The position numbers were made by a program, and so were the translations under genes. 20,646 bases of DNA from Deltaproteobacteria bacterium (lineage in GTDB: Bacteria > Bdellovibrionota_F > JAHFAK01): the NCBI GenBank assembly GCA_023250585.1, contig JAHFAK010000026.1, positions 1 through 20,646 of the forward strand. Direction: 5' to 3'. Numbering within the stretch: position 1 is the stretch's first letter; each line of letters starts with the position of its first letter. The notes under the pieces are model-generated. The model did no database searches. It was given only the letters and a program-made list of their open reading frames with translations, and had not been told where the DNA came from. Positions 1-8,733 of this stretch are shown in pieces.

Positions 1-66
1 GAGCTTTCGTAACTCTGATAGCCTTCGTACCAATGGCCCATGTTCCGTGATAAATGCTCGCTTCAT
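1..66 (-). CDS. 5' part of an unidentified gene, cut by the window edge
   Basis: An open frame starts with ATG at 66-64 and runs 22 codons off the window, beginning MKRAFITEHGPLVRRL. An AAGGAGGA ribosome binding site at 80-73 lies 6 bases upstream, and a canonical sigma-54 promoter lies further upstream at 130-114, so this is very likely a real gene start. The product cannot be recognised from 22 residues. It is the first gene after the sigma-54 response regulator on the same strand, which makes it the obvious candidate target of that regulator. The start and ribosome binding site are seen; the regulatory link is inferred. Confidence 0.7.
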   Translation of the reverse strand, partial: MKRAFITEHGPLVRRLSELRKL

Positions 67-113
67 ACAAAATCCTCCTTATATATGTTTACCCCAGATG
101 AAATATGTATATA

Positions 114-130
114 AGCAAAACACGTGCCAA
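114..130 (-). promoter_or_regulatory. sigma-54 (-24/-12) promoter for the gene starting at 66
   Basis: Read on the minus strand, 130-114 is TTGGCACGTGTTTTGCT. The invariant GG (128-127) and GC (116-115) are separated by exactly 10 bases, as in the sigma-54 consensus TGGCAC-N5-TTGC. Transcription would start near 103, leaving a leader of about 37 bases that contains the strong AAGGAGGA site. The promoter sits just after a sigma-54 activator gene. A near-identical promoter lies at 6172-6155. Confidence 0.85.
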
Positions 131-235
131 GATTATAGGAAAGTCTGTTACTCCCGTAGTATCTAGAGATTATATAAGAAGAGCATTTGAGGAAGAATCA
201 TTTTTATAAAAAATAGTGAAAAGCCGTTCAAGCAA

Positions 236-1549
236 TTAAACAATCTTGTCAATTTCTTTCATCTTATTACAAATCGTCGCCGGAGAAACACCAAGAATTC
301 GTGCTGCCTCTCGCATACTTTTCACGGTCTTCATCGTACGCTGAATAAGTTCTAACTCATACTTTCGAACTTGTGATCCTAGACTTTGATCGACGCTTTC
401 GTGTTTGAAAATTTTTGGTGGGATATCGAGAAGCCTAATCTCATCTGTCTGACTAAAGATCTTTGCGCTTTCAATAACCTGTTTGAGTTCTCGGATATTA
501 CCTGGCCAATCATAACATCGAAAGATCTCCATAACCTCTTGGCTTACTAATTTCTTAGTGTCACTCATAAAATAAGTAATAAGTGCTTCAAGATCTTCCA
601 TTCGATCTCGGAGAGCCGGAAGCGTGAATTCAATAGTATTGAGTCGATAATAGAGGTCTTCTCTCAATTTTCCTTCCGCAATTAACTTTTCTGGATTTTC
701 GTTTGTTGCAGCGATTACTCGAAAATCAACTTTACGACATTTCTGTGAGCCAATTCTTTCTACTTCTTTTTCCTGTAAGATTCGTAAGAGTTTACTCTGT
801 AATTCTATGTCCAAACATGTTATCTCATCCAAAAAAATATCTCCGCCGTCTGCAAGTTCAAACTTTCCAGCTCTTCCCTCCTTTGCATCCGTATATGCAC
901 CTGTCTCATATCCAAAAAGTATAGACTCAATAAGACTCTTGGGTAACGCCGCACAGTTGATTGCTATAAAGGGACGACTTAAATCTTTTTCTTGTTCGTT
1001 GAGTCTTCGTGCAATTAATTCTTTTCCCGTTCCACTCTCACCAAGAATTAAGATATGAGAATTATGTCCTTTTAATCGTTCTACTTTAGTAAGTATCTCT
1101 TGTATTGCATAGTTGGTTCCAATAATCTCAGTCTTCTGTGTTACCTCGCTCAGCTTATTTCTCAAGTGATTGTTCTCATCTTCTAATGATTTTCGTATCT
1201 TAATTTTGGTAAGAAAAAAGGTGAGCTCATCTCGATCAATAGGTTTTCGTAAATAATCAATTGCGCCAATGAGGAGAGACTCTCGTATAAGCTTTGTATC
1301 TGCCGATTGAGTGAGCATTACAACTGATGACTGATATCCTTTTTCTTTAATTGCCTTGAGAATTTCAATCCCACTGTGTTTCTGCTCTAAATTAATATCT
1401 AAAAATACAAGATCAATCTTTTCATTTCCCAAAATCTCAAGGGTTACCATCTTACTTCGTGCATGAAATAACGTACAGGTAATGCCTAAATAACTCTTGA
1501 GAGTCTCATGAATAATACTTTCATCATCAACGATCAGTACACGCAACAT
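236..1549 (-). CDS. NtrC-family sigma-54-dependent response regulator
   Basis: A 437-residue cytoplasmic activator of RNA polymerase-sigma-54 with the standard three domains. The receiver (about 1-118) has acidic residues D8/D9, phospho-acceptor D51, T80 and K102. The AAA+ domain (about 141-360) has Walker A GESGTGKE at 170-177, Walker B GGDIFLDEI at 235-243 and WPGNIREL at 348-355. The Fis-type helix-turn-helix is at about 411-432. The sigma-54 contact loop is GAYTDA (217-222) rather than the textbook GAFTGA; similar variants occur in working activators. The start has an AAGGAG site. The gene overlaps the 3' end of the hybrid kinase gene by 23 bases, so the two are probably translationally coupled. 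Two sigma-54 promoters flank the cluster and are its likely targets. Confidence 0.95.
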   Translation of the reverse strand: MLRVLIVDDESIIHETLKSYLGITCTLFHARSKMVTLEILGNEKIDLVFLDINLEQKHSGIEILKAIKEKGYQSSVVMLTQSADTKLIRESLLIGAIDYLRKPIDRDELTFFLTKIKIRKSLEDENNHLRNKLSEVTQKTEIIGTNYAIQEILTKVERLKGHNSHILILGESGTGKELIARRLNEQEKDLSRPFIAINCAALPKSLIESILFGYETGAYTDAKEGRAGKFELADGGDIFLDEITCLDIELQSKLLRILQEKEVERIGSQKCRKVDFRVIAATNENPEKLIAEGKLREDLYYRLNTIEFTLPALRDRMEDLEALITYFMSDTKKLVSQEVMEIFRCYDWPGNIRELKQVIESAKIFSQTDEIRLLDIPPKIFKHESVDQSLGSQVRKYELELIQRTMKTVKSMREAARILGVSPATICNKMKEIDKIV

Positions 1550-3434
1550 ACGAACTCCTTCCTACTAACCCCCGTATATCGCCTCTACTTACTGGTTTCA
1601 TGACAAAATCAATTGCACCTTTTTCAAGTGCTTCTATGCTTTCTTCTGATGTTCTGAAATTACTCATTAACAGAACTCGAATATCTTTCTTATGTGTTTT
1701 GATTTTTTCTAATATTTCTATGCCATTTAATTTATGATTACCTAATCTATAATCACTAATTACATAGCTAATTCCATGTTGTTCAATAAGATCAAGAACT
1801 TCTTCCCCATCAGAAGCTACAATAGTCTCGAGTGATGATAATTCCCTATCATCTTCAATGAGATATTTTACTGATTCACAAAAAATTGGCTCATCATCTA
1901 TTATCAAGACTCTCTCGCTCTTGCGTGCTCTCGTATATTCAGGTTTGATATTTTCAGAATGAGGTACGAGGTGATTAATAGTATAATGTCTATTGGCTAA
2001 GGTGATCTCCAATGGTTTTTCCTCAAATGCCGCATCACTAACGGGCAGTATTACCTGAAATATTACCTCTCCTTCTTCATTATTTTTAAGAATGAGGGTT
2101 CCCTCGTGTGCAAATACTATATTCTTTGCTATCGCAAGCCCTAATCCAGTTCCTTCTTTCTTTCCTCGAGTTTTAAAGGGCTCAAAAATTTCCTTGGCAA
2201 ATTCATTATCTATCTTTGGCCCATTATTTGTTATCTCAATAGATATACCAAAATCAGTATTTTCATTATCCTTTGGTATGTGTACTTGAGTTACTTTTAT
2301 TTCTACTATCTTCTTCTCATCTGAATTTGAAATTTCGCCGAGCACGTCAATCGCATTCACAATAATATTCATTAAGGCTCGTTGTAACTTTATCGCATCA
2401 ATGTGTAAAGATGCATCTATTGACGATGTACACGTACAAAATATTTTTGCGCTCTGCCCTCTCAAATGCTGTTCAACATCTTGAAAGACAGATTGAAGAA
2501 ACTCATGAAGTCGTAGAGGTATCTTATTAATCTGATTACCTCTCGAAAATTCCATGAGATCCTTGATCAGTGTTTCCACCTTCTCTCGGGCCTTCTCGAT
2601 CTCTCGTTTATTCTCCTCAATGAATGTTTCATCATGTGCTCGCTTCGGTAATAGCGCAAGAAACTGCTTTATGTTATTAAATGGCCTTCGTATATCATGC
2701 GCTATCTCTGTCGTCATCTGCCCTATTGAGGCAAGTTTCGATTGCTCTTTGATTGTCTGTATAAGATGATTAAATCGTTGTGCTAAATATCCCACTTCAT
2801 CTTTTCTATCAGTAAAACTTAGAGATCCTAAACTATCTTTTCCTTTTGCATGTTCTTCTATTTGTTGAGCCAACTTCAGAAGCGGATTACTCAACAGATA
2901 GACAAGAGAAGCAATTATAACAATAGTAGCAAATACTGTGATGAGAGCAATACCTAGAAGAATAATCGTTTGAACTAAGAGTAATTTTTTTACAGGAGCG
3001 ACCGAAATAGCCATAACAAACTTTTCAGCACCTTTTGTCTTCGTTAATTCAATATAGGAACCTCGTAAAGAACTCATTTTGCGCGCTTTAATGTCATCAT
3101 CATCTCTTAGTAGTAATCCATTGTTCGGCAAAGAGCAGAGATTTCCTTTCCTAAATACTCGTTGAAAGGATAGCTTGTTGTTTTCTCCATATAATCCAAA
3201 ATAAAGTATATCTTCGGTAAAATAAGGATCGTCGAGTCTTTCCTTTTGATAGGTCAATAGCGAAAGTTTTTTTATCCCTTCATCAATGGCTTGGTCATAT
3301 ACTTGTTTCCTAAGAGTAACGATAGAAAGGATAAACATAAAAATAAGGATACATGCTACAGGTATTGGCAGAGCAACCATGAGTTTGTTGCGAATTGATT
3401 TATTAAAGAAAAAAATAATTCGTTGAATCACCAC
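1527..3434 (-). CDS. membrane hybrid histidine kinase with C-terminal receiver
   Basis: A 635-residue sensor kinase. Membrane segments at about 21-41 and 150-182 bracket a periplasmic region of roughly 108 residues, small enough to bind an extracellular ligand directly. A HAMP-like linker follows (about 181-232), then the H-box with H246 (EIAHDIRRPF), the N-box (about 352-364) and the ATPase G-box GTGLGLAIAKNIV (428-440). A receiver domain at about 507-625 has D513/D514, phospho-acceptor D561 and K613. It overlaps the response regulator gene, its obvious partner, and follows the MFS gene by 9 bases. The start is uncertain. Two consecutive GTG codons (3434, 3431) lie against or within the GAGGAG ribosome binding site, and an in-frame TGA just upstream rules out an earlier start. 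Confidence 0.93.
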   Translation of the reverse strand: MVIQRIIFFFNKSIRNKLMVALPIPVACILIFMFILSIVTLRKQVYDQAIDEGIKKLSLLTYQKERLDDPYFTEDILYFGLYGENNKLSFQRVFRKGNLCSLPNNGLLLRDDDDIKARKMSSLRGSYIELTKTKGAEKFVMAISVAPVKKLLLVQTIILLGIALITVFATIVIIASLVYLLSNPLLKLAQQIEEHAKGKDSLGSLSFTDRKDEVGYLAQRFNHLIQTIKEQSKLASIGQMTTEIAHDIRRPFNNIKQFLALLPKRAHDETFIEENKREIEKAREKVETLIKDLMEFSRGNQINKIPLRLHEFLQSVFQDVEQHLRGQSAKIFCTCTSSIDASLHIDAIKLQRALMNIIVNAIDVLGEISNSDEKKIVEIKVTQVHIPKDNENTDFGISIEITNNGPKIDNEFAKEIFEPFKTRGKKEGTGLGLAIAKNIVFAHEGTLILKNNEEGEVIFQVILPVSDAAFEEKPLEITLANRHYTINHLVPHSENIKPEYTRARKSERVLIIDDEPIFCESVKYLIEDDRELSSLETIVASDGEEVLDLIEQHGISYVISDYRLGNHKLNGIEILEKIKTHKKDIRVLLMSNFRTSEESIEALEKGAIDFVMKPVSRGDIRGLVGRSSYVACTDR

Positions 3435-3443
3435 TCCTCACTA

Positions 3444-4826
3444 TTAAATTTTGTATGAAATTGATTCTCCTTCCAAAATTTTGTCAGGTTCTTCAATTGC
3501 AACTTTTTTTCTAAAGTATCTCATCATTAAAATATGCATTATTATAGCTACTACAATAACGACTCCAGAGGGAAGCATCCAACCAGCGGCGGATACGGTA
3601 TCTTGTGGTTTATTTGAGGGAAAGAGGAAAATTATTAATAGTAAATTCAAGAACATCGCGGAAAATGAAAGGATAGTAGAACGCTCTTTGGAATTTTCTA
3701 AGGGTATGTAATAGTTAATAAAGGTATTAAAGGCTGGCATAAGAAAGCCATAGCCAATATTAAAAATTGCAACAACCGCAATAAATAATGCAAGGTTGAG
3801 GGGACCTTTGAGATTACTGAAACCTAAAATAAAAAGAGACACTCCTGTTATTAATGAAATAATAACAAACAAATTCCATAATTTTTCATTAGGCATTCTT
3901 TTTTTTGTTTTTTCGATATACAAAATCTGATATTTTTCTAATCCCTTAGCGCCAATAAATGAAGTCACAAAATTAAGAACTATTATTAAGAACCAATAAA
4001 AGGTCATCTTCGTTACCCCAAAATTACTCTTCAGCGTAATAGGCCACAGAAACATCGCAATGTAGATGAGCATCATAACACTCCCGTAGAGAATAATACT
4101 AAAAAAAACAGGAGGCACTTTGGTGCTAATTTTAAAACCATTGACTAAAATATTTCGCATACGTTTAAAGGACTCTCGTACTAATAATTTCCCCTGATAA
4201 AAAGGAATGGATTTCGTTTCTTCCATCGTAACTGCACAATAAAGAGCACAGAGAAGTGATAGGATACATCCTATTGCAAAAATAAAGTATGGATAACCGC
4301 TCAGATATAACCCTATACCCATTATAGCTCCAACAAGTTTAGCTATAATCATATGGCCATATGATCGAGTAAGAATGGGTCCATGTCCTTCTTGAATATT
4401 TTGCTCTCGAACTGTATCAACAATCCATGCATTAAACGAACCATTATAGAGAGTATAGCTGATTGCAGAACAAATCGAAGCTGACACAATAAGACTTCCA
4501 GCAAAATACATATTCGAAACAAAATAAATCCAAAGAATCAAAAATGAGGAAAGACCAATAAAGACAAAGCTAGTGATAATAGTTTTTTTTCTTCCAATAT
4601 GATCCGCCACAATACCTGTGGGCACTTCTGTTAATAAATTAAGAATCTTATCGATAATCATAATAAATAAAACTAAACTTAGCGCAAAACTTTTTCCACC
4701 GAAATAATCGAAGAGAAAAAGTTTATAGATGTATTGGAATATCCCAACATTGAAACCATGGGTCAAACGTACAATTCGAGTCGTCTGCCAAATCTCTTGA
4801 ACCTTTGGATTATTGAGGTGTAACAC
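3444..4826 (-). CDS. MFS permease, probable exporter of the radical SAM cluster
   Basis: A 460-residue inner-membrane protein with about 12 hydrophobic segments. The MFS loop 2-3 signature is visible at about 71-82 (GIVADHIGRKKT), preceded by EVPT. The start is GTG at 4826, with GGGAG at 4836-4832 and a 4-5 base gap. The frame is followed 9 bases later by the kinase gene, so permease, kinase and regulator are probably one transcript. The substrate cannot be read from sequence. Because it sits between a radical SAM enzyme with a small ORF and a two-component system, export of a small modified peptide is plausible. A drug or metabolite efflux role would fit the family equally well. Confidence 0.85.
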   Translation of the reverse strand: MLHLNNPKVQEIWQTTRIVRLTHGFNVGIFQYIYKLFLFDYFGGKSFALSLVLFIMIIDKILNLLTEVPTGIVADHIGRKKTIITSFVFIGLSSFLILWIYFVSNMYFAGSLIVSASICSAISYTLYNGSFNAWIVDTVREQNIQEGHGPILTRSYGHMIIAKLVGAIMGIGLYLSGYPYFIFAIGCILSLLCALYCAVTMEETKSIPFYQGKLLVRESFKRMRNILVNGFKISTKVPPVFFSIILYGSVMMLIYIAMFLWPITLKSNFGVTKMTFYWFLIIVLNFVTSFIGAKGLEKYQILYIEKTKKRMPNEKLWNLFVIISLITGVSLFILGFSNLKGPLNLALFIAVVAIFNIGYGFLMPAFNTFINYYIPLENSKERSTILSFSAMFLNLLLIIFLFPSNKPQDTVSAAGWMLPSGVVIVVAIIMHILMMRYFRKKVAIEEPDKILEGESISYKI

Positions 4827-4869
4827 AATTACTCCCTAATTAATATTTTATGAATTAATTCTTTTCATT

Positions 4870-5010
4870 TTACCAAACTGATAATTCACTCAACATGTGC
4901 GTCTCTCTACTAACAATATGAGCTTCTACTATCTGTGCTCTTAATGAAACTGCTCGAACAGGTATCATTCTCACCACGCTTAGAATTCCTAAGATTATTC
5001 TTTTTTTCAT
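4870..5010 (-). CDS. 46-residue small ORF, candidate precursor peptide
   Basis: ATG at 5010-5008, stop TAA at 4872-4870. An AGAGGG ribosome binding site at 5023-5018 lies 7 bases before the ATG. The peptide begins MKKRIILGILSVVRMIPV, continues with an Arg/Val/Glu/His-containing stretch, and ends ETHMLSELSVW. It has a basic start, a short hydrophobic segment, no cysteine, no double-glycine motif and a C-terminal Trp. It occupies the only long gap in the cluster, directly after the radical SAM gene and before the permease, where ribosomally made peptide precursors are often found. I recognise no family. The frame and ribosome binding site are seen; translation and modification are inferred. A chance ORF of this length is possible. 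Confidence 0.5.
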   Translation of the reverse strand: MKKRIILGILSVVRMIPVRAVSLRAQIVEAHIVSRETHMLSELSVW

Positions 5011-5066
5011 AAAAATTCCCTCTCTTTAAATGACGAATGTAATTAGTAAGTTTTTCAACTAGCTAT

Positions 5067-6134
5067 TTATCTTTTGAGCCAACAACCAGGGTCCCATCCA
5101 AAAAAGTGACCATATGTTGCAAAGCTTGCGTTTCGATCTCCTCTACATTGTGTAAAGTAGGAACATTCACTACAAATGTCAAATGCTCCTTTTCTTAAAC
5201 GCTTCATGATGGGATGATTGAAAATAACGTCTTCTAAACTATCTTCTAATATATTTCCTAAAACCATAGGCGTACGACTTGTTACTTTAATCTTGCCTTG
5301 ATAACCAATAACGAGGCCATTGAATCCGACGTTGTTCGGAGCACCTAAGCCGTTTTCAATGAGACACCAGAGTGGGCCATTTGTTGAGGTAGCTATCCCA
5401 CTTCTCCTCGATACATCTAAAATACGTTTATATGCTGTTTTCAGTTCTTCTCCAAGAAGAGGTGCATCCTTATTATTCAATTGAAATTCTTGAGCATGCC
5501 CTTCAATAACAAGTCGAGCAAAGTTCATTGACCGAGCTCCTGTTTTTCTAGTAAGGGCAAAGAAATCATCTATCCATGGAGCAGTCCGCTTACTCAAAAC
5601 TGCTTGATGAATAAAAGGAATGCTCTTGTCTTTCAATACACCACATCCTGCCATTGCTTTTTCAAAGCTTCCGATTCCTCGAATCTGATCATTTCGTTCT
5701 CCATCTGGTCCATCTATACTTATCTGAAAGGAAACATTAAATTCTTTACATTTTTGGGTAAGCTCTTCAGTAATACGTGTCCCATTGCTTTGAATAGATA
5801 ATAGTGAGTCTGGAAAACGCTTACGAATATTTTCAATTAAAGGAAGTATAAATGGAGCAAGGGGAGGTTCACCTCCGCATAACGTCACATGAGCTTTCAT
5901 ATGTAATGTGTTGAGCAAGGCTTCATATTTATCAAGAACCTGACACCATTCTCCATAATTCAAGGATCCATCATTTCTATGATGCGGACAATAACAGTGA
6001 TCGCAGATAAGATTACATGCATTAGTGATATCGAGTTGCAAATGAAAGAACTGCTCTTGTGAATCGAACTTTGTCCAAAGACGATCACAAATCCAATTAA
6101 TGAAGTTCTGTTTATTGAGAGTTGATGTTATCAT
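5067..6134 (-). CDS. radical SAM/SPASM-type enzyme
   Basis: A 355-residue cytoplasmic enzyme. The cluster motif CNLICDHC gives C40, C44 and C47 for the 4Fe-4S centre that cleaves S-adenosylmethionine. GGEP at 87-90 and the SIDGPD strand at 139-144 are typical of the radical SAM barrel. The C-terminal SPASM-like region has C257, C321, C324, C330 (CX2CX5C) and C351 (DPGC), so one or more auxiliary clusters are likely, but the pattern has fewer cysteines than the full SPASM motif. Such proteins commonly modify ribosomal peptides, but cofactor (PqqE-like) and heme-modifying (NirJ-like) enzymes share the design. The leader is very short (about 11 bases from the predicted start site), with no clear ribosome binding site. 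A small ORF follows 56 bases downstream. Confidence 0.88.
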   Translation of the reverse strand: MITSTLNKQNFINWICDRLWTKFDSQEQFFHLQLDITNACNLICDHCYCPHHRNDGSLNYGEWCQVLDKYEALLNTLHMKAHVTLCGGEPPLAPFILPLIENIRKRFPDSLLSIQSNGTRITEELTQKCKEFNVSFQISIDGPDGERNDQIRGIGSFEKAMAGCGVLKDKSIPFIHQAVLSKRTAPWIDDFFALTRKTGARSMNFARLVIEGHAQEFQLNNKDAPLLGEELKTAYKRILDVSRRSGIATSTNGPLWCLIENGLGAPNNVGFNGLVIGYQGKIKVTSRTPMVLGNILEDSLEDVIFNHPIMKRLRKGAFDICSECSYFTQCRGDRNASFATYGHFFGWDPGCWLKR

Positions 6135-6154
6135 AAACTACTATTAAACGAGAT

Positions 6155-6172
6155 AAGCAAAATGCATGCCAA
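6155..6172 (-). promoter_or_regulatory. sigma-54 (-24/-12) promoter for the radical SAM cluster
   Basis: On the minus strand 6172-6155 reads TTGGCATGCATTTTGCTT, with GG (6170-6169) and GC (6158-6157) exactly 10 bases apart. It differs from the promoter at 130-114 only in the middle bases. The predicted start near 6146 lies about 11 bases before the radical SAM start codon. An 18-bp dyad TGTTTA-N6-TAAACA at 6223-6240 lies about 85 bases upstream of the predicted start, a usual place for an activator site, but I cannot show that the regulator binds it. Confidence 0.82.
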
Positions 6173-6312
6173 TTTTTCTAGCTTAATAATTTCAATAGAT
6201 TATAGAATACCAGATTATTTATTGTTTAACTTCCTAAACACGTATTCAAATTTTAAAACATTTCTATAATTTTTCAAACAATTATCCTTACACCACCGTA
6301 CAAAACCCAAAT

Positions 6313-6342: not shown

Positions 6343-6373
6343 TCGTTATATTAATTTAAATATGGGAGGTGCT

Positions 6374-7099
6374 ATGCAAAGACTATTTACTTTATGTTCG
6401 TTCATCCTTATTTCTTTATTTCTTCTTTCTGCCGACAAATTTTCCTGCCAACCTAATGCTAAGCTGGATCGTACTAGTGCCAATTCATACTTAGAGTATT
6501 ATCCTTCTGGAAGTAGTACGTTGATTCGTACGTATACTCCTGGATATCCTGATGGGATTAATGAATATTTAATTACGACTGATACCTATGGAAATAAATA
6601 TATTAAAAACGCAAGTTTGCCATTAAGCTACGATAACATCCAAAATAGTAATGACATAGGCAGATATTCGGTAGTTAATATACATTATTTAGACTATTTT
6701 ATTGATAATGGAATTTACACATTAGATGATGATGATCCCGCAGAAATTGAGAAAGCTAAAGCAATACTTCCTGAATGGATTGGTAATCCCCCAAAACCAC
6801 AAAGTGGAGATTTTTTTCCTGAGCCCGTGTTTATTTATGTCGAAGATGCTGATTATGATGTGAATCCTAATGACCATTACTATGAATATCCTAAAGCAAT
6901 AACCAAAGCATTCTATGCCAAAAAAACAGATGTTAATGGGAATGGATCTCGATTGATTATAGAAACATTTAATGCATTAGATGTATATGATTATGCTGAG
7001 GTCTTAGAACTTCAAGATGCTGCTCAGCCTATTAATAAAATAATTAATGTAAAAAATACCGTAGATATTAAGAAGAATATACCTAATAAACTTCAATAA
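6374..7099 (+). CDS. unknown exported protein
   Basis: A 241-residue protein of unrecognised family. I chose ATG 6374 over the in-frame ATG at 6362 because GGGAGGT at 6364-6370 lies just before it; the earlier ATG would place that site inside the coding region. The N-terminus (MQRLFTLCSF then ILISLFLLSA) is a clear secretion signal. A cysteine follows in KFSC, which is a poor lipobox, so signal peptidase I cleavage or a non-standard lipoprotein are both possible. The mature part is rich in Tyr, Asp and Asn, with acidic runs such as LDDDDPAEIE, and has no further membrane segment. It has its own promoter and converges on the thrombospondin-repeat gene with only 5 bases between the stops. Confidence 0.75.
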   Translation: MQRLFTLCSFILISLFLLSADKFSCQPNAKLDRTSANSYLEYYPSGSSTLIRTYTPGYPDGINEYLITTDTYGNKYIKNASLPLSYDNIQNSNDIGRYSVVNIHYLDYFIDNGIYTLDDDDPAEIEKAKAILPEWIGNPPKPQSGDFFPEPVFIYVEDADYDVNPNDHYYEYPKAITKAFYAKKTDVNGNGSRLIIETFNALDVYDYAEVLELQDAAQPINKIINVKNTVDIKKNIPNKLQ

Positions 7100-7104
7100 T
7101 CCTA

Positions 7105-8733
7105 TTACCAACAGCTAGGATCTGGTATGAGTAATTCTGTATTCAATCTATCTAATGTTTTATCTTCATCTCTATCAAAAGGTAATATAAACTCATTAGG
7201 TTCAAAGATACTTAAATTAGAATATTCATCACTATAATAATTAAGCTTAGTCTTTGTCAGGATAATTTGCTCTTTATCTTTCATGAGGTTATATAAGGAA
7301 ATAGCGTCTGGACTATCAGGACTAAATGGATTCACAATCTGTCCCAACATAATTTTGACATCTTCAAAGCGAGAGCCAACTTTTCCTCTCAATACAATAG
7401 CAGCACCAAATATCCGAGCCTGTGGATTCTCAAGCTCTAAAGGAAACGTACACGTGTAGGTTTTCGTATCTTGATTGATAAGCTTTGCTTTATGAAAGAT
7501 CAGTGGATCTAAATCTCCTCCGCTATTCGTTTGTGTCGTTGCACAGACTGTCTCAAATTGATCAGTGAGCGTTGGAATACTCATACCATAGATATCAGGA
7601 ACATCTGTGGTATTATAATACATAGCCCAATCATCATCTTGGGCACTCTTATCTTGTACCTTCCTCTTCATACATTGAAGCATTGATTGTAATGCTAAGA
7701 CATAACTTACCTTCATCGTACTATTCGTAGACATTGTACTAAAGGTATAATTTACGATACTTTCATTCAATTCACTGAATGAGTATTTATTGGTAAATTC
7801 ATCAGGATTTACTCCGACTATAAGATCATCTCGCGTGATTATATGATCATCAGTTCTCGTAATAATCTCTTGTATCTTTGCTTCTAAATCATCTCGGGTA
7901 TGAATATCATTCGTAGCAATATCAGTACGCGTGATGATGTCATCGAAAATGTGGACATCCATAACATACTGCTGATCAAGAATACTTCCGGAGATAAGCG
8001 ATAGTGAAAGATTCTTATTCATTTGTCCTACATATTCATATGCATCTCCATCTTTGATATACATTCTAAAGCATACTGAATCTGTCCCCTCACATTTATA
8101 GTCTATATAAAGTTTGGTCGTTGTTGATTCAGCTGCTGGAGAATCTTTCGTTGATCCACAGTTTGGATTACTATCATATGGACAGAGATCTGATTCGTTT
8201 ATCTTACCATCTCCATCAATATCATCATCACAAGAATCTCCAATGCCATCTTTGTCTAAGTCTTCTTGCTTTTCATTGGCTATAGATGAACAGTTATCAT
8301 GATCATTATCTATGCCATCATCATCTTTATCATTCGGATCACAGCCATCTTGAGAATCATAGGGACATGCATCATCAGTATCCGCTATTCCATCATTGTC
8401 ATCATCGGTATCTGTTGCATCTCCTACTCCATCTTTATCTGAATCTGTTTGATCACTATTGACCACCGTTGGGGCGTTGTCTTCACTATCAGCTACTCCA
8501 TCATGATCGCTGTCAGACGTTGGGTTTTCATAGATAACCTGGTTTGCTTGTTCTGACTCCTCTGATGGATTCTCTATAATTTTATTCTCCACTGATCCAT
8601 CTTCATCTCCTCCTCCACAAAACGGTATCCCTAAAGAGAAGAGGATGAAGAATAGAGCTATCGTGATTAATACTATACTCGAAATATAATATGGACAACC
8701 AGATTTCTGATGAGTCTTGAACTTAAATTTCAT
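7105..8733 (-). CDS. membrane-anchored protein with thrombospondin type 3 repeats
   Basis: A 542-residue protein. A hydrophobic segment at about 17-38 is followed by C39 in GIPFCGGG, so it is either a lipoprotein with an unusual lipobox or an N-terminally anchored protein. Residues about 70-195 hold thrombospondin type 3 repeats, with Asp-rich DxDxDG calcium-binding units (for example DSDKDGVGD and DDDNDGIAD) and paired cysteines. These are known as rigid, Ca-stabilised stalks of outer-surface proteins. The C-terminal 340 residues match nothing I recognise. They contain a short run of ITRTD/HTRDDL-like repeats at about 267-303. The start has a strong AGGAGGAGAT site. The gene is monocistronic and convergent with the 6374 gene. 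Confidence 0.88.
   Translation of the reverse strand: MKFKFKTHQKSGCPYYISSIVLITIALFFILFSLGIPFCGGGDEDGSVENKIIENPSEESEQANQVIYENPTSDSDHDGVADSEDNAPTVVNSDQTDSDKDGVGDATDTDDDNDGIADTDDACPYDSQDGCDPNDKDDDGIDNDHDNCSSIANEKQEDLDKDGIGDSCDDDIDGDGKINESDLCPYDSNPNCGSTKDSPAAESTTTKLYIDYKCEGTDSVCFRMYIKDGDAYEYVGQMNKNLSLSLISGSILDQQYVMDVHIFDDIITRTDIATNDIHTRDDLEAKIQEIITRTDDHIITRDDLIVGVNPDEFTNKYSFSELNESIVNYTFSTMSTNSTMKVSYVLALQSMLQCMKRKVQDKSAQDDDWAMYYNTTDVPDIYGMSIPTLTDQFETVCATTQTNSGGDLDPLIFHKAKLINQDTKTYTCTFPLELENPQARIFGAAIVLRGKVGSRFEDVKIMLGQIVNPFSPDSPDAISLYNLMKDKEQIILTKTKLNYYSDEYSNLSIFEPNEFILPFDRDEDKTLDRLNTELLIPDPSCW

Follow-up and report, generated by a model that had tools for sequence, protein, structure and literature searches.

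Processed and modified peptide pheromones are a hallmark of Gram-positive bacteria; quorum sensing in Gram-negative bacteria relies mainly on small diffusible molecules. The Vibrio LuxPQ-LuxO pathway, which responds to AI-2, joins a periplasmic binding protein and a membrane hybrid kinase to a sigma-54-dependent regulator of the NtrC type, and in the agr and ComQXPA systems, ligand and receptor diverge jointly within a conserved operon that also includes a dedicated modifying enzyme and a kinase. Activation of kinases by binding proteins is, moreover, well established (PMC11113362). Here we analyze an operon in the window, namely, the entire contig JAHFAK010000026.1 (C75; 20,646 bases) of the metagenome assembly GCA_023250585.1 of a Deltaproteobacteria bacterium (2.24 Mb in 164 contigs, 96.7% complete). 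The genes, all on the minus strand, are arranged in the order radical S-adenosylmethionine (SAM) enzyme, 46-codon open reading frame (ORF), major facilitator superfamily (MFS) transporter, hybrid histidine kinase, and NtrC-type sigma-54 activator. On balance, it appears probable that this cluster is a signalling module by which a cell of the Gram-negative type responds to a peptide of its own making and induces the module further, resembling LuxPQ/LuxO with a modified peptide as the signal.

A peptide gene that accompanies a radical SAM subfamily

The evidence centers on the small ORF (4870..5010, minus strand), which encodes a putative precursor peptide of 46 amino acids, MKKRIILGILSVVRMIPVRAVSLRAQIVEAHIVSRETHMLSELSVW, with a signal-peptide-like N-terminus, next to the gene for the putative peptide maturase (5067..6134, minus strand). 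Among the intergenic ORFs of the window that start with ATG and span at least 30 codons, this one alone is preceded by a purine-rich (GA-rich) ribosome-binding site. A search of 98 genomes with the peptide alone recovered, apart from the peptide itself, a single match (E=0.0115), on contig C153 of the same genome (C153:6579), and this match lies no more than 3.2 kb from the sole paralogue of the window radical SAM gene in that genome (53% identity). The peptide clusters were compared between the window genome and that of Deltaproteobacteria bacterium RIFOXYA12_FULL_61_11 (hereafter RIFOXYA12), a member of the same class. The radical SAM subfamily is represented by four clusters, two per genome, and all four encode a homologous peptide of 46-50 amino acids with a signal-peptide-like start, as well as a hybrid kinase. 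An earlier interpretation of this DNA (hereafter, the sequence-only reading) had asked whether the small ORF is always present in related clusters, and in the four clusters of this subfamily, it is. The peptides share a common layout: a charged start, a hydrophobic stretch, a proline, a leucine six residues on, and a variable tail. Judged by these comparisons, the small ORF is a real gene. The juxtaposition of a precursor peptide with a modifying enzyme, as is typical of ribosomally synthesized and post-translationally modified peptides (RiPPs), is found in all four radical SAM clusters and in the YcaO locus described below.

The putative maturase matches the radical SAM profile (PF04055, E=1.5e-17), contains the CX3CX2C motif, and ends in a SPASM-like tail that scores 21.2 bits against a cut-off of 21.5, that is, just below it. 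The motif segment CNLICDHC and the further cysteines C321, C324, C330, and C351 are invariant in the four subfamily members, and on these sequence features, we assign the enzyme to the radical SAM superfamily with a SPASM-type auxiliary domain. The nearest profile matches include ACGX (TIGR04340; 96.7 bits against a cut-off of 400) and SbtM (TIGR04082; 97.4 bits against 350); all 25 NCBIfam matches listed miss their cut-offs, and identification of the maturase with ACGX, SbtM, or another named SPASM equivalog was rejected. Also set aside as members were more distant radical SAM relatives (L046-L050), which reside in other gene contexts, several of them with a short PqqD-like ORF, and the nearest plasmid matches, which are mycofactocin-type and other enzymes with less than 60% identity.

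On C153, the order begins at the contig edge with a sigma-54 activator that lacks its start and continues with a sigma-54 site, followed by genes for an MFS transporter, the radical SAM enzyme, two SBP_bac_5 proteins, the small ORF, and the hybrid kinase. The two RIFOXYA12 clusters encode the small ORF, an SBP_bac_5 protein, the radical SAM enzyme, and a kinase with a receiver domain, and in both, the small ORF directly precedes the binding-protein gene. An OppA-like binding protein is thus encoded together with the hybrid kinase, a LuxPQ trait, in three of the four clusters, the window cluster being the one that lacks it. Some peculiarities of these clusters should be mentioned. The second of the tandem C153 binding proteins (L043 5093-6556) is 60% identical to the first and has no signal sequence. 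The C153 activator has no receiver, and the bases that precede it (L043 1-122) translate into what looks like the tail of a transposase-like frame (KRPHEAL...), which suggests an insertion element or an assembly join; Pfam gave no confirmation of a transposase in these 30 residues. In both RIFOXYA12 clusters, the kinase is followed by a secreted protein that was not assigned to a family (L045 9532-10464 and L044 2-265).

Within the RIFOXYA12 pair, the peptides are identical at 27 of the first 28 residues, and the tail is largely changed. The radical SAM enzymes are 82.5% identical and the kinases 86%, with a nearly invariant periplasmic segment; the binding proteins are 61% identical, with saturated synonymous divergence (Ks). 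We read the peptide tail and the binding protein as a putative ligand-receptor pair that diverges while feeding a constant kinase. The GC content is 0.37-0.38 in the binding-protein genes compared with 0.61-0.62 in the maturase and kinase genes, and the peptide DNA is likewise AT-rich, so that the peptide and binding-protein block resembles a cassette that can be exchanged. The same divergence pattern would result from gene conversion of the flanks, and the cassette would still hold ligand and receptor. The structure predictions were too poor for fold searches (pLDDT 55.7 for the kinase sensor from a single sequence and 39 for the binding protein from two sequences).

This pattern of divergence bears on two other explanations of the small ORF. 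The length of 46-50 amino acids, the strongly hydrophobic segment near the N-terminus, the polar tail, and the proximity to a kinase gene would all be compatible with a one-helix membrane microprotein that, similarly to MgrB or SafA, touches the kinase directly and is neither secreted nor a modified signal. Such a protein would, however, be expected neither to have a maturase beside every copy nor to vary in its tail along with a binding protein, when the periplasmic domain of the kinase is nearly invariant, and we regard this explanation as very improbable. Alternatively, the peptide could be a modified, bacteriocin-like antimicrobial with autoinduced production, the kinase sensing the product to control synthesis or resistance, and any signalling role being secondary. 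A radical SAM enzyme combined with an exporter and a two-component system is a common layout of bacteriocin clusters, and a hypervariable tail is compatible with warfare, too. Quorum-controlled radical SAM antimicrobials have been described in streptococci (PMC8092268). Yet, neither an immunity gene nor a protease nor a dedicated ABC exporter was seen in the clusters, those of RIFOXYA12 encode no exporter at all, the binding protein diverges together with the tail, as a receptor would, and the same regulatory frame accompanies non-peptide enzymes in the sister modules of the window genome. An antimicrobial therefore seems unlikely.

A locus of RIFOXYA12 with a different enzyme extends the comparison. 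Contig C11 (L190 2212-7000) encodes a precursor-like ORF, an SBP_bac_5 protein, a YcaO protein (E=8.7e-17), and a hybrid kinase. The ORF of 77 amino acids, with a signal-like start and the C-terminal sequence ...EPYDSCGTHFTNER, is the end of a 119-amino-acid ORF at 2217-2576 and starts from an internal ATG at 2343 that follows a strong ribosome-binding site. C11 would represent a second maturase class, in which YcaO takes the place of the radical SAM enzyme; the other RIFOXYA12 kinase and activator neighborhoods inspected look ordinary. In C11, a large radical SAM gene converges from the opposite side. The 18-bp palindrome GATTCG-N6-CGAATC lies upstream of all three RIFOXYA12 loci and occurs only four times in the 4.6 Mb of this genome and not once in the window genome. 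The fourth copy, on C74 (L200 3607-3624), is located about 100 bp before a gene for a ComF-like protein with a double zinc ribbon and a phosphoribosyltransferase domain; a tie between the RIFOXYA12 peptide circuits and competence is only a lead.

Sigma-54 promoters and candidate enhancers

The sequence-only reading envisaged a self-activating circuit of six minus-strand items, with sigma-54 promoters at the head of the cluster and before the next gene. All six items are found on that strand, and both promoters are present, with -24/-12 elements TGGCATGCATTTTGCT (6156..6171, minus strand) at the operon head and TGGCACGTGTTTTGCT (114..129, minus strand) before the next gene; first-order Markov shuffles of the window contain 0.02 such sites on average. 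Across the genome, which encodes RpoN (sigma-54), the pattern occurs 57 times, compared with a single occurrence of the reversed control. Each of the two promoters is preceded by a candidate enhancer of the form TGTT-N10-AACA: TGTTTAGGAAGTTAAACA (6223..6240, minus strand), 51 bp upstream of the head site, and, with one mismatch, TGTTTAATTGCTTGAACG (225..242, minus strand), 95 bp upstream of the second site. The modules on C75, C14, and C91 have six sigma-54 promoters in total, and this 18-bp palindrome, with at most one mismatch, lies 51-106 bp upstream of every one of them; it is also present in one of the 24 other sigma-54 regions. As inspection was what brought the motif to light, the hypergeometric probability, 7/593,775 = 1.2e-5, serves as a guide value. 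The activators on C75, C14, and C91 also have in common a KMK pattern in the C-terminal helix-turn-helix (HTH), which does not appear in the other module activators.

The remaining proteins of the operon are a putative MFS exporter (3444..4826, minus strand; E=4.4e-19), for which no PDB relative was found by sequence at E<=1; a membrane hybrid histidine kinase (1527..3434, minus strand), with a periplasmic segment between two transmembrane segments followed by HAMP, HisKA, HATPase_c, and Response_reg domains; and an NtrC-family activator (236..1549, minus strand), with Response_reg, Sigma54_activat (8.8e-64), and HTH domains. In the translations of the kinase and the regulator, the phosphotransfer His and Asp residues are in place. 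The regulator thus has all the domains of the sigma-54 activator proposed earlier, but the loop reads GAYTDA instead of the canonical GAFTGA; in the nine other activators examined in this genome, it is G[AS]FTG[AS]. NorR variants with the single substitutions F264Y and G266D are still active and bypass repression, in part or completely (PMC2941729), and by analogy, the window regulator may be constitutive.

The presumed output gene, which starts MKRAFITEHGPLVRRLSELRKL... (1..66, minus strand), does lie behind a sigma-54 site; it is cut by the contig end, and what there is of it resembles a second, receiver-less sigma-54 activator. A near-identical gene (MKRAFITEHGPLVRRLSELRKLKGSTITIHIYGESG...) is found behind a sigma-54 site at the ends of five contigs, C14, C54, C64, C75, and C91, with copies that are 97-100% identical where they overlap and a body that is absent from the assembly; a failure to assemble across the repeat is the probable reason for the contig ends. 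When the first 36 residues, read from another copy, are aligned with the activators of C64, C102, and C5 at the AAA+ start, they outscore all 200 shuffles in each case, and no receiver precedes them. A fragment of this length yields no Pfam match, and no exact match was found in viral contigs. By this alignment, the repeated gene probably encodes a receiver-less sigma-54 activator.

The cluster is flanked by a lipoprotein-like protein with no Pfam match (6362-7099, plus strand) and a thrombospondin type 3 repeat protein (7105-8733, minus strand); the rest of the window genes, judging from the translations, are housekeeping.

Sister modules in the same genome

Besides C75 and C153, five loci in the window genome have activator and kinase genes together with one for a periplasmic binding protein, and in most cases genes for enzymes or exporters as well. 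These modules include PfkB, a class II aldolase, and SBP_bac_1 on C14; a methyltransferase, an S33 hydrolase, MatE, a hexapeptide transferase, and SBP_bac_5 on C91; a methyltransferase, a short-chain dehydrogenase/reductase (SDR), and Peripla_BP_6 on C64; EamA and Peripla_BP_6 fused in one 703-amino-acid ORF on C102 (L151 1972-4083, minus strand); and a beta-eliminating-lyase-type pyridoxal phosphate (PLP) enzyme, a methyltransferase, and ABC_sub_bind on C5. The fusion on C102 suggests that one compound could be both exported and sensed. Of the approximately 11 sigma-54 activators in the genome, seven sit in such modules, a count made partly by inspection; among the module activators, two supported clades emerge, C153 with C102 and C5, and C14 with C91, and C75 stands alone. 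An association of the kinase and the regulator mostly with unrelated genes had been named as a sign against the circuit, and this objection holds in part. The combination of the kinase with an activator or a binding protein does recur with six other gene sets, most of them of the enzyme, exporter, and periplasmic binding protein kind, and the circuit is, accordingly, one member of a module family rather than a fixed five-gene set. Altogether, the genome has about seven modules, and apart from that of the window, they are mostly enzyme/exporter/binding-protein variants.

Given that kinase-activating binding proteins are common and usually sense metabolites (PMC11113362), and that PfkB and the class II aldolase of C14 adjoin a sugar-type binding protein, the modules might be environmental sensors of nutrients or toxins, in which the binding protein monitors a compound from the surroundings, to be processed or expelled by the enzymes and transporters, and the small ORF is incidental. 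What makes this improbable is that no permease genes lie beside the binding proteins of the peptide modules, that the small ORF is kept in all four radical SAM clusters and a separate precursor-like ORF stands beside YcaO, and that radical SAM and YcaO enzymes next to small ORFs are usually biosynthetic.

A broader interpretation, which we put forward tentatively and would not rate as an even chance, is that all these loci belong to a family of ‘make-and-sense’ modules, each comprising its own biosynthetic enzymes (a radical SAM or YcaO enzyme with a peptide, methyltransferases, PLP enzymes, or sugar-phosphate enzymes) along with a kinase, a sigma-54 activator, and a periplasmic binding protein of a class to match, and in many cases an exporter. 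In the window genome, several modules would converge on a single downstream sigma-54 activator present in identical copies, and modified-peptide pheromones with exchangeable peptide-receptor cassettes would be one variety. If so, an uncultured lineage of the Gram-negative type would possess many private signals and one shared answer, and the repeated activator suggests a way for a small genome to integrate several self-made signals.

The putative circuit

Signalling by the window cluster can be envisaged as follows. The radical SAM enzyme would modify the 46-amino-acid precursor, which would leave the cytoplasm via the Sec-type leader, the MFS transporter, or both. The membrane kinase would then sense the mature tail in the periplasm. 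In most relatives, this would involve the OppA-like binding protein of the operon itself; in the window cluster, the kinase would sense the tail directly or rely on a binding protein from another locus, perhaps one of the two on C153. The hybrid kinase, which has the domains and residues for this, would pass phosphate to the NtrC-type activator; the latter would bind the TGTT-N10-AACA sites and fire its own operon, in positive feedback, along with the repeated receiver-less activator that would spread the response.

Several observations weigh against this scheme. The window peptide contains no cysteine, and the window cluster has no binding-protein gene. A hybrid kinase normally requires a histidine phosphotransfer (Hpt) domain, and none is present among the domain matches of the window kinase and regulator, the genome as a whole not having been searched for Hpt. 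The regulator departs from the canonical GAFTGA loop. The RIFOXYA12 peptide clusters have no MFS gene and no adjacent activator, and even a relaxed pattern detects no sigma-54-like site close upstream of their peptide genes. The enhancer and palindrome motifs were identified after inspection, and just four clusters of the subfamily are known, from two assemblies, all the sequences being metagenomic. Self-activation, as proposed by the sequence-only reading, is supported in the window, where the operon's own promoter and the next one carry a candidate enhancer common to two sister modules, but this arrangement is not kept in RIFOXYA12. The circuit as a whole fares similarly: the constancy of the small ORF and the candidate enhancers at both promoters speak for it, but the gene set is not fixed.

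Comparison with known systems

In the open literature, we found no match for radical SAM, quorum sensing, histidine kinase, solute-binding protein, and sigma-54 combined, nor for OppA with pheromone, sensor kinase, and radical SAM, nor any paper that names RIFOXYA12_FULL_61_11. If the proposed scheme holds, a peptide modified by a radical SAM or YcaO enzyme and read by an OppA-like receptor and a hybrid kinase would be a new route of communication, and a defined, expressible system in which to find the signal.

The closest counterpart is LuxPQ-LuxO; in the window, a gene for a sigma-54 regulator adjoins that of the kinase. The differences are substantial, however: the presumed ligand is not AI-2 but a gene-encoded, modified peptide from the same operon, and the receptor is OppA-like rather than LuxP-like; no local LuxU-like Hpt was found, the operon would be under positive feedback, and the window cluster is without a binding protein. 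Reports on the Rgg/SHP-controlled radical SAM RiPPs (RaS-RiPPs) of streptococci describe short hydrophobic peptides, radical SAM peptides, and quorum sensing in one regulon (PMC8092268, PMC13361665). In those Gram-positive cells, a cytoplasmic Rgg protein reads the signal, and what comes under regulation is the radical SAM peptide, whereas here, a membrane kinase and a sigma-54 activator would fill the regulatory role. Finally, the joint divergence of ligand and receptor recalls agr and ComQXPA, with the distinction that in the clusters described here, the diverging receptor would be the binding protein, and the kinase sensor stays constant, an arrangement in which orthogonal channels of peptide tail and binding protein become directly testable.

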